This document shows, in pieces, positions 15,509 to 58,373 of a stretch of DNA of 64,000 nt. The notes beneath the pieces were generated by a model that made no database searches, was not told where the DNA came from, and saw only the letters and a list, made by a program, of their open reading frames with translations. Position 1 is the first letter of the stretch. Every line of letters begins with the position of its first letter. The stretch covers positions 27,451 to 91,450 of the forward strand of contig JACPJE010000012.1 in the NCBI GenBank assembly GCA_016187725.1, in the 5' to 3' direction. Position numbers and translations under genes: made by a program. This DNA is from Candidatus Latescibacterota bacterium. GTDB taxonomy: Bacteria > Latescibacterota > UBA2968 > UBA8231.

Positions 15509-15664
15509 GAAGGTAAACCGCATCCGTAAGACCTGGACCAGGCTGCTCTTGCGTAAGCAGGTGATACTCCGTCCTCGAACGGTGAGAATCGGCCCCCAGG
15601 GTGGAGCGGTTTTCTTTTTGGCTCCTACAGGATTATCTCGCGCACCTTCTCCAGGAGGGGGGTT

Positions 15665-51586: not shown

Positions 51587-54106
<2,520 letters not shown>

Positions 54107-55270: not shown

Positions 55271-55299
55271 TTGACAAAGCGCTGCCGCCATTCTACATT
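55271..55299 (+). promoter_or_regulatory. Sigma70 promoter of putative ncRNA
   Basis: TTGACA (55271-55276) - 17 nt - TACATT (55294-55299). Confidence 0.7.
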
Positions 55300-55305
55300 T
55301 ACCCA

Positions 55306-55553
55306 TGTAATTTGCGGCGAGGTTCAGTGGCTTCTCACCTTTGCCAAAAGGGAGGTAAATATGCCACCGGACTACAAAAGGCGGCTGGGGTGACAGACAC
55401 CTTCAAGCCGCCTTCCCTCGACCTACCCGCTAGCTCGGCGCCGATCCACGGCCTGCCCGATCGGCGCCGAACACAGAGTCTGCCGCAGACTCTTCTATCA
55501 GTTCTCTGATAGGAAATCCCTGCTCCCCAAGTTCGAGCAGGGATTTTTTATTT
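55306..55553 (+). ncRNA. Candidate structured noncoding RNA or attenuator leader, family unrecognised
   Basis: Consecutive helices 55318-22/55416-20, 55327-31/55363-67, 55378-86/55406-14, 55435-46/55459-70 (12 bp perfect), 55475-82/55486-93, 55495-501/55506-12, then an intrinsic terminator. Confidence 0.65.
55514..55553 (+). terminator. Rho-independent terminator
   Basis: AAATCCCTGCTC-CCCAAGTTC-GAGCAGGGATTT followed by TTTTATTT. Confidence 0.85.
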
Positions 55554-55620
55554 CCCTTGCCGGTGTTCACCTGCGCTTTTATATTTCGGTTCGCTATCGC
55601 GAACCTCCCTTCCCCCCTGA

Positions 55621-56610
55621 TTGCCCATGCCCTGCATCCTCGCCGAGAACCTGGTCAAAACCTACCGCATCTCCCAGCGCCAGCCCGGGGTGTGGGGCGC
55701 GGTCCGGGGCCTACTGCACCGCCAGCACCGCACCCTGCGCGCCCTGGACGGGGTCTCCTTTGCCATTGAGCCGGGCGAACTGGTCGGCTATATCGGTCCC
55801 AACGGGGCCGGCAAGTCCACCACCGTCAAGGTGCTCTCCGGCATCCTGGTGCCCGATGCGGGCCGCTGCCTGGTGCTGGGCCGGATCCCCTGGCAAGACC
55901 GCATCGCCCACGTGGGGCGCATCGGGGTAGTCTTCGGCCAGCGCACCCAACTGTGGTGGGATCTGCCGGTGGTCGAGTCCTTCGAACTCTTGCGCGACAT
56001 CTACCGGGTGCCGGCCAGGGACTACATCCTCCGCCGCGATGAACTGGTCGCCATCCTCGAACTGGAGCCCCTGCTGGACGTGCCGGTGCGCCAATTGAGC
56101 CTGGGCCAGCGCATGCGCTGCGATCTGGCCGCCTCCCTGCTCCACGCCCCGGCACTGCTCTTCCTCGACGAGCCCACCATCGGCCTGGACGCCCTCTCCA
56201 AACTGGCGGTGCGCGACTTCATCCGCCGCCTCAACCGGGAGCGCGGCACCACGGTGATCCTCACCACCCACGACATGGACGACATCGAAGCCCTGTGCAG
56301 CCGGGTGCTGCTCATCGACGGGGGGCGGATCCTGTTGGACGACACCCTGGAGGGCCTGCGTGCCCAGGTCTCCTCCGAGCGCCGCCTGATCCTCGACCTG
56401 GTCGAAGACGGGCAACCCTTCAGCGATCTCCAGGTCCGCCTCCTCCGGCGCGAAGGCCGCCGGGTCGAGCTGGCCTTCGACCCCGAGGAGATCCCGGCCG
56501 CCGCCCTCATCAGCCGGCTCACCGCCCTGCACGCGGTGCGCGACCTCTTTGTGGAGAATCCCCCCATCGAGGAGGTCATCGCCCACCTCTACCGCCAAAA
56601 CCAGGGATGA
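55621..56610 (+). CDS. ABC-2 type transporter ATP-binding protein
   Basis: GYIGPNGAGKSTTVKVLSGILVPDAG...QLSLGQRMRCDLAASLLHAPALLFLDEPTIGLD; start may be the internal ATG 55627 or 55633. Confidence 0.93.
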   Translation: MPMPCILAENLVKTYRISQRQPGVWGAVRGLLHRQHRTLRALDGVSFAIEPGELVGYIGPNGAGKSTTVKVLSGILVPDAGRCLVLGRIPWQDRIAHVGRIGVVFGQRTQLWWDLPVVESFELLRDIYRVPARDYILRRDELVAILELEPLLDVPVRQLSLGQRMRCDLAASLLHAPALLFLDEPTIGLDALSKLAVRDFIRRLNRERGTTVILTTHDMDDIEALCSRVLLIDGGRILLDDTLEGLRAQVSSERRLILDLVEDGQPFSDLQVRLLRREGRRVELAFDPEEIPAAALISRLTALHAVRDLFVENPPIEEVIAHLYRQNQG

Positions 56611-57398
56611 GGAGCTATCTGGCGGTCTTCAGCGCCCGGCTGCGCATGCTGCTCCAGTACCGGGCCGCTGCCTTTGCCGGCCTGGCCACTCAGCTCTTCT
56701 GGGGCCTGATCCGCGTCATGATCTTCGAGGCTTTCTACCGCACCACCACCAGCCCCCAGCCCATGAACTACGCCCAGGTCGTCGACTATGTCTGGCTGGG
56801 CCAGGCCCTCCTCGCCCTGCTGCCGATCTGGATGGATACGGAGGTCCGTGCCATGATGCGCAACGGCACGGTGGTCTACGAGCTGGTGCGTCCCCTGGAC
56901 CTCTACAATTTCTGGTACGCCCGGGCCCTGGCCTCCCGGCTGGCGCCCACGCTCTTGCGCGCCCTGCCGCTCGGTGGCCTGGCCCTCCTCTTCTTTGGGC
57001 TCGCCCCGCCCGTCTCCCCTGCCGCCGGCCTGGCCTGGCTGCTGACCGTCCTGGGCGCCCTGCTCCTGGGCGGGGCCATCTCCACCCTGCTGAACATCTC
57101 GCTGATGTGGACCATCGCCGGGGAGGGCATCTTCCAGATCGTCGCCGCCTGCGTCGTCCTCCTATCCGGCATGATCGTGCCCCTCCCCTTCTTCCCCGAC
57201 TGGATGCAGGTGGCTTTGAAGTCGCTGCCCTTTGCTGGCCTGGTGGACCTGCCCTTCCGCCTCTACACGGGTCATATTCCCGCCGCTGAGGCGCCGGCCA
57301 TCTTCGCCGGCCAGCTGGCCTGGACCGCAGCGCTGGTCGGCCTCGGCCGTCTGGTCCTGCGCCGGGGCATCCGCCGCCTGGTGGTGCAGGGAGGCTGA
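56607..57398 (+). CDS. ABC-2 family transporter permease
   Basis: ATGA overlap with ATPase; six-TM protein MRSYLAVFSARLRMLLQYRAAAFAGLATQLFWGLIRVMIFEAFY. Confidence 0.85.
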   Translation: MRSYLAVFSARLRMLLQYRAAAFAGLATQLFWGLIRVMIFEAFYRTTTSPQPMNYAQVVDYVWLGQALLALLPIWMDTEVRAMMRNGTVVYELVRPLDLYNFWYARALASRLAPTLLRALPLGGLALLFFGLAPPVSPAAGLAWLLTVLGALLLGGAISTLLNISLMWTIAGEGIFQIVAACVVLLSGMIVPLPFFPDWMQVALKSLPFAGLVDLPFRLYTGHIPAAEAPAIFAGQLAWTAALVGLGRLVLRRGIRRLVVQGG

Positions 57399-57572: not shown

Positions 57573-58373
57573 ATGAACGCCCTCCGCCTCTACCTGCGCT
57601 ACCTGGGGGTCTCCTGCCGGGGCCAGATGCAGTACCGCGCCTCCTTCCTCATGCTCACCCTGGGTCACTTCCTCATGACCGGCCTGGAGTTCGCCGGCGT
57701 CTGGGTGATCTTCTCGCGCTTCGGCAACCTCCAGGGTTGGTCCCTGCCCGAGGTCGCCCTCTTCTACGGCATCATCAACATGGCCTTTGCCCTCAGCGAC
57801 GCCACCTCGCGCGGCTTCGACATCCTGCCCACCCTGGTCAAAAACGGCGAGTTCGACCGCATCCTGCTGCGCCCGCGCAGCACCGTGCTGCAGCTGGCCG
57901 GCCAGGAGTTGACCCTGCGCCGCGTCGGCCGCTTCTCCCAGGGCCTGCTGGTGTTCCTCTGGGCCGCCCACACCCTGGAACTGAGCTGGTCGCTGGCCAA
58001 AATCGCCCTGCTCTTAACCACCCTCCTCGGCGGGGCCTGCCTCTTCTACGGCCTCTTCGTGCTCCAGGCCACCATGGCCTTCTGGACCACCGAGACCCTG
58101 GAGATCATGAACACCCTCACCTACGGTGGGGTGGAAACCGCCCAGTATCCGCTGGTCATCTACCGCGCGTGGTTCCGCCGCTTCTTTACCTTGGTGGTGC
58201 CCCTGGCCTGCGTCAGCTACTACCCGGCCCTGGCCCTGCTGGGGCGCGCCGACCCGCTGGGCTCGGCGATTGTCCTGCACTGGCTGGCGCCCCTGGTGGG
58301 CCTCCTCTTCCTGGTCCTGTGCCTGCAGGTCTGGCGCTGGGGCGTGCGCCACTACCGCTCCACCGGCAGTTGA
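57573..58373 (+). CDS. ABC-2 family transporter permease
   Basis: MNALRLYLRYLGVSCRGQMQYRASFLMLTLGHFLMTGLEFAGVWVIFSRFGNLQGW; ABC-2 permease fold. Confidence 0.85.
   Translation: MNALRLYLRYLGVSCRGQMQYRASFLMLTLGHFLMTGLEFAGVWVIFSRFGNLQGWSLPEVALFYGIINMAFALSDATSRGFDILPTLVKNGEFDRILLRPRSTVLQLAGQELTLRRVGRFSQGLLVFLWAAHTLELSWSLAKIALLLTTLLGGACLFYGLFVLQATMAFWTTETLEIMNTLTYGGVETAQYPLVIYRAWFRRFFTLVVPLACVSYYPALALLGRADPLGSAIVLHWLAPLVGLLFLVLCLQVWRWGVRHYRSTGS

Follow-up and report, generated by a model that had tools for sequence, protein, structure and literature searches.

A candidate translated small-RNA gene upstream of an ABC-2 exporter in Latescibacterota and its relation to a family of Met-Pro-Pro mini-ORF hairpin elements

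The window analyzed here is a 64,000-nt stretch of a Candidatus Latescibacterota genome (G000:C286:27451-91450, where G000 denotes the host genome), and it contains a predicted RNA unit directly upstream of a three-gene ABC-2 exporter operon on the forward strand. The unit begins with a promoter, P1 (TTGACA-N17-TACATT, 55271–55299), and the predicted transcript of ~248 nt (55306–55553) runs from the inferred transcription start through a terminator U-tract, as judged from folding and conservation. The exporter consists of a DrrA-like ATPase gene (55627–56610, PF00005), whose best NCBIfam match was drrA, below the cut-off, and two ABC2_membrane_6 (PF06182) permease genes (56607–57398 and 57573–58373). 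On the reverse strand, positions 51587–54106 encode a large fusion protein of 839 aa with DUF362, membrane and multiple 4Fe-4S domains. The sole above-threshold Rfam match in the window was a DUF3800-III RNA (RF02962, 70.1 bits) at 15515–15612 on the forward strand.

In a DNA search, the RNA locus was recovered from each of the five genomes of its own genus (g1), always directly upstream of the exporter ATPase gene, and nowhere outside the genus among 60 relatives. The −35 hexamer of P1 was invariant in the five genomes and the −10 hexamer followed TA[CG]ATT, while the spacer diverged in sequence and was 17 nt long (18 nt in G004). Scanning a 2-kb stretch yielded four sigma-70-like sites, compared with 0.2 expected from shuffles. 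A 250-nt transcript folded with −114.5 kcal/mol, compared with −76.7 ± 4.8 kcal/mol for shuffled sequences (z = −7.9). A first-pass annotation of this DNA had proposed a promoter-to-terminator RNA unit starting at P1; all of the elements that it named were in place, and the unit was conserved in five of five genomes, including both P1 hexamers. It had also seen no resemblance to tmRNA, RNase P, SRP or common riboswitch motifs, and no Rfam 15 family matched the locus at the gathering threshold. The best sub-threshold match was NsiR1 (23.2 bits vs. 39), and the matches obtained at relaxed thresholds were discarded as chance-level and terminator-driven. Seven relative loci likewise gave no RNA-family match except a tRNA.

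The 3' part of the RNA contains three perfect hairpins and an intrinsic terminator, all of which had been noticed before and were confirmed. The first is a 12-bp hairpin (55435–55470) with a nearly invariant apical loop, YACGRCCTGCC, and three of its pairs showed compensatory changes among the five genomes. The second, AGAGTCTG-CCG-CAGACTCT (55475–55493), carries no covariation information because it was (nearly) invariant in all five, and the third, CTATCAG-TTCT-CTGATAG (55495–55512), was kept in three genomes and lost in G001 and G004. The terminator, AAATCCCTGCTC...GAGCAGGGATTTTTTATTT (55514–55553), was conserved in five of five genomes, as were the first two hairpins; it was missed by our terminator scan because its loop is 9 nt long. 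In folding calculations the terminator formed with a probability of 0.93–1.00 whether the RNA was free, a ribosome was placed at Pro-Pro, or a ribosome was placed at the stop codon, and the folds of four genomes contained no ribosome-dependent antiterminator at this locus.

The 5' domain was less well supported as a structured RNA. The first-pass annotation had suggested a three-way junction, and its closing stem CGAGG/CCTCG does occur in the reference fold; however, one of the four complete relatives has a broken stem, and covariation over the whole 5' fold did not exceed that of shuffles. We therefore rejected a three-way junction or 5' aptamer, and, with no Rfam match either, the locus lacks the covariation-backed aptamer fold in cis that would mark a riboswitch. 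One helix of the domain (17-26/58-67), which includes the Pro-Pro codons described below, was invariant in four complete genomes. In G004 the 5' domain was duplicated in tandem.

The locus had been called noncoding, which is wrong or at least incomplete, since the 5' domain contains a conserved and well-initiated 10-codon open reading frame that the first reading had overlooked. A Shine-Dalgarno sequence GGAGG (55351–55355) lies 5 nt before the ATG and was invariant in all g1 copies, so that GGAGGTAAATATG at 55351–55363 forms a textbook start site. The ORF (55361–55393, forward strand) encodes MPPDYKRRLG and was conserved in the five genomes, with MPPDCFRRLG, MPPDCEGRLE and MPPDYTRRLR in three relatives and MPPDCNRRLG and MPPDCIQRLE in the two tandem copies of G004. 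The genus-wide pattern was MPPD[YC]xx[RQG]RLx, accompanied by synonymous changes. Codons 6–11 provide the 5' arm of a hairpin, AAGGCGGCTGGGG... / ...AAGCCGCCTT (55378–55414), whose base lies ~18–20 nt after the start codon and which has no U-tract, the true terminator being ~120 nt downstream. An apparently noncoding multi-hairpin locus may thus hide a translated mini-ORF.

Downstream of the terminator, we found a second promoter, P2 (TTGCCG-N17-TATATT, 55557–55585), which had also been overlooked and which would serve the exporter. Its hexamers (TTGC[CT][GA] and [TG]ATAT[TC]) and 17-nt spacing were kept in all five genomes while the spacer sequence diverged. Just after the P2 −10 hexamer lies GGTTCGC-TATC-GCGAACC (55588–55605), previously listed as a last RNA hairpin. 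The element is present, and TTCGCTATCGCGAAC was invariant in five of five genomes; a DNA palindrome beside the −10 hexamer, and probably an operator, is the more plausible reading, because GTTCGCN4GCGAAC recurs just once in each of three genomes (G000, G002 and G004), ahead of a small HTH-like gene whose promoter, TTGCCN-N17-TATATT, matches that of the exporter. The palindrome resembles only superficially a Geobacter-type LexA motif, and since its sole other copy precedes the HTH-like gene, an autoregulated small HTH protein appears to be a better lead than LexA. The small HTH-like proteins (~66 aa, MEKVDxSRVERAARLYVSNKEAGQALGIAAGSFGRLCRQYGI...; loci L089 at G000:C101:32621, L093 and L091) reach nine copies in a single genome of the host family and have weak Pfam similarity to RWP-RK and HTH_50; the copy that shares the promoter and palindrome of the exporter is a candidate regulator. 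Other genera of the family share the three-gene exporter operon, with no such RNA upstream of it. A mini-ORF element 2.3 kb upstream of the exporter orthologue in G015 was dismissed as a leader, with an opposite-strand gene between them.

Related elements were detected well beyond the genus. A covariance model, R1, built from g1 only, gave weak matches in other genera, all of which had GGAGG-N(5-7)-ATGCCACC followed by a hairpin; the Shine-Dalgarno GGAGG anchors the phylum-wide family as well, and window positions 55351–55414 share its full layout (GGAGG, ~5 nt, ATG, two Pro codons and a hairpin base at nt 18–21). A strict sequence pattern matched 17 of 64 genomes of the phylum, and a looser one matched 27 of 64, several of these matches lying inside genes, while the reversed pattern gave no match. 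Pattern matches L139, L140, L141 and L150 and the low-scoring R2 matches L132–L136 were set aside as lying in genes or lacking the ORF-hairpin layout. In a scan of one genome per species across 85,462 species, real elements were found solely in Latescibacterota-type records; three of these are labelled Gemmatimonadota or Gemmatimonas and correspond to genomes or sequences of the Latescibacterota group. Matches in Noviherbaspirillum, Burkholderiales, Fimadaptatus, Acidimicrobiia, Thermoflexaceae and Sphingomonas had no hairpin or lay inside apparent genes, and the search of viral contigs returned 0. At the sensitivity used, the family is confined to Latescibacterota.

Across the family, the stem always begins 18–21 nt from the A of the ATG, while its sequence beyond GCG[AG] differs between genera with compensation. 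Six of the nine pairs were changed on both sides, giving a covariation score of 0.61 compared with 0.25 for shuffles (0/500) and at most 0.15 for slid-alignment controls, for a hand-fitted core alignment with trimmed loops and two bulges taken out, which inflates the percentage paired, and with the 5' arm fixed by its distance to the ATG. Codon 2 was CCA or CCG, and codon 3 was CCA, CCC, CCG or CCT; because both vary synonymously, codon usage indicates that Pro-Pro, and not the nucleotide sequence, is under selection. The ORFs are 6–32 codons long, and residues after Met-Pro-Pro vary freely. As Pro-Pro formed part of the search patterns, so that its universality arises partly by selection, we also ran an unbiased terminator scan over 0.8 Mb of two Latescibacterota genomes on both strands. 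Among 101 terminator-like sites, three were closely preceded by a Shine-Dalgarno sequence and start codon; two of them, the two positives on which the scan rests, encode MPP peptides. In the literature searched we found no description of a GGAGG-ATG-Pro-Pro-hairpin element, and the family is apparently undescribed.

The elements occur in several genetic contexts. In terminator-type members, found at eight loci in five genera (g4, g7, g11, g13 and g15), the hairpin doubles as an intrinsic terminator ahead of a gene. Such elements precede a CBS-domain gene in g13 (MPPGCY) and g15 (MPPGYFWRSLRT), an NAD-epimerase gene in g7 (MPPVNFERL) and g4 (MPPYRCKRL), and a TlpA-like thioredoxin gene at a second copy in g15 (MPPMCFERS). 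In g11, MPPGCL precedes a short ORF that begins (MTIQDILGA) much like the CBS-domain gene, and a second copy (MPPVCR) is also of the terminator type. In a sixth genus, g10, the ORF stop codon TGA overlaps the ATG of the same CBS-domain gene that follows the terminator in g13 and g15, an arrangement of the translational-coupling type. The hairpin has no U-tract in the exporter RNA of the window, at a second g1 locus, in the G015 element (g7) and in the g9 elements. The last are free-standing and occur once in each of 11 genomes; the loci examined have no nearby downstream gene on the sense strand. They encode an 18-residue peptide, MPPICIQRSG.... The majority of the family lies away from any exporter.

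The geometry of the terminator-type members suggests how they may work. In silico, a ribosome with Pro3 in its P site left ~8–10 hairpin pairs in the eight elements, and a ribosome at the stop codon left 0–1 pairs; the ORF thus appears to be placed so that passing Pro-Pro decides whether the terminator forms. Efficient Pro-Pro passage would melt the hairpin and permit read-through, while stalling or lack of translation would lead to termination. The overlap of ORF and terminator, with the ribosome predicted to prevent the latter in g4, g7, g11, g13 and g15, makes these members most likely ribosome-coupled, pyrL-like attenuators. The g10 layout, which also requires translation of the ORF, supports the same sign, translation being ON. 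We infer that the sensed variable is EF-P or general translation capacity.

Parallels for such a design exist. In Escherichia coli pyrL/pyrBI, close coupling of ribosome and RNA polymerase prevents an intrinsic terminator and no antiterminator is needed, and when Elgamal et al. put polyproline ahead of the pyrL terminator, read-through came to depend on EF-P, with 26- to 32-fold effects (PMC5021804). The MPP family similarly ties a leader ORF to an intrinsic terminator. Unlike in the pyrL reporter, its Pro-Pro is natural and sits at codons 2–3, the ORF is short, and the hairpin start is fixed; nothing in the family, which belongs to a different phylum and accompanies different genes, suggests UTP sensing. 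The window's member departs further from pyrL, since its ORF hairpin is not a terminator and its terminator is unaffected by ribosome position. In Salmonella mgtL/mgtP, the translation speed of a proline leader ORF and EF-P set transcription into the next gene (PMC6460261). The short proline-containing leader ORF is shared, but the sign is opposite, stalling there turning mgtA ON through alternative stem-loops while stalling in the MPP family is predicted to cause termination, and no Mg2+ transporter accompanies the family. Translation of the Bordetella CruR (DUF2946) uORF, which has an RAPP arrest motif, also controls transcription of the next gene (PMC9426467); unlike the MPP ORFs, CruR is a full-length protein and involves a copper ligand, Rho-dependent termination and no EF-P. 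Antibiotic-responsive leader peptides such as that for msrD (PMC10314930) likewise combine a short leader ORF with a terminator before a resistance or transport gene, whereas MPP members have no conserved arrest peptide beyond Met-Pro-Pro and are mostly unlinked to resistance genes. With only two Pro codons, an exporter downstream and no antiterminator in the folds, the locus does not resemble a his/trp-type attenuator.

The family may, at somewhat less than an even chance, represent a new phylum-wide class of elements in which a Met-Pro-Pro mini-ORF at a fixed distance from a hairpin would act as a ribosome gate reporting Pro-Pro passage (EF-P activity or translation capacity), fitted to termination, translational coupling or free-standing RNA outputs. 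An EF-P-dependent switch based on polyproline stalling before a terminator is known from an engineered reporter and a few predicted E. coli genes; if our reading is right, a natural family with start-proximal Pro-Pro at a fixed distance from a terminator, attached to genes as diverse as those for a CBS protein, an NAD-epimerase and a thioredoxin-like protein, would be a dedicated cellular use of this principle. To our knowledge, there is little genetics in Latescibacterota.

At the window locus, we slightly favor, over all other readings taken together, a self-contained translated small-RNA gene with a 5' translation-sensing domain and 3' hairpins as its probable trans output. P1 would drive the ~248-nt transcript, whose 5' domain carries the strong ribosome-binding site and the Met-Pro-Pro ORF. 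A ribosome slowed at Pro-Pro would abut the ORF hairpin, and one past Pro-Pro would open it; the three further hairpins and the strong terminator would end the unit just before P2, and the 3' hairpins, with the YACGRCCTGCC loop, would carry the output, probably in trans. Conservation, the ORF, its spacing, the hairpin covariation, the terminators, and P2 with its palindrome can all be read in the DNA, and from them we infer transcription, translation, Pro-Pro/EF-P sensing and action in trans. Judged by sequence, the unit has its own promoter, its own terminator and a downstream gene that would be transcribed separately, as expected of a free-standing sRNA.

The first-pass annotation had left the choice between a free sRNA and a terminator-controlled leader. 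Our analysis leans toward the former because the terminator is independent of the ribosome in silico, P2, with its constant 17-nt spacing, gives the exporter a conserved promoter of its own, and orthologous exporters lack the RNA; the free-standing g9 relatives also count for it. The latter remains the main rival, though an unlikely one. It would make the RNA the 5' end of the exporter mRNA, with regulated read-through at 55514–55553 and the MPP ORF as sensor, and it gains from the strict synteny with the exporter in five of five genomes, from the fixed order of terminator, P2 and ATPase gene, and from family members in five other genera that look like cis attenuators. Cis regulation by read-through could likewise explain the exporter link and the terminator-P2 spacing; it would have to overcome a terminator that forms in silico at all ribosome positions with no antiterminator.

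Improbable, in our view, is an RNA-only aptamer or sRNA whose ORF is a by-product of structure and whose ribosome-binding site simply happens to be there. The very stable fold and the invariant helix 17-26/58-67 would suit such an RNA, but the invariance of GGAGG-N5-ATG, the use of all four Pro codons at codon 3, the retention of ORF length and hairpin spacing in unrelated sequence contexts, and the 5' fold's lack of covariation excess argue against it. A functional micropeptide gene, with MPPDYKRRLG as a signal or exporter substrate, is more improbable still: a conserved peptide does adjoin the exporter, and the g9 members make their own 18-residue peptide, but family peptides vary freely beyond Met-Pro-Pro, range from 6 to 32 residues and mostly lie away from exporters.

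Several minor observations were made alongside the translated small-RNA gene and its relatives. The second g1 MPP locus (G000:C30:28987-29022, L148; G002:C221, L095), with a 32-codon ORF and a downstream terminator, precedes a sigma-70 factor gene of the RpoS/RpoD type. A conserved block, ~RCCGCGRGYGTGAGTTGnnGGGYCGYAAC, occurs upstream of the ribosome-binding site in genera g4, g7, g9 and g15 (upstream of the ORF at L052, L051 and L034; also at L146, L147, L149 and L049) and forms no convincing helix. At the g9 loci (L052, L051 and others), the RNA terminator is immediately preceded by another mini-ORF (MTCST or similar), which has a GGAGG of its own, and the stem again starts at ~nt 19.
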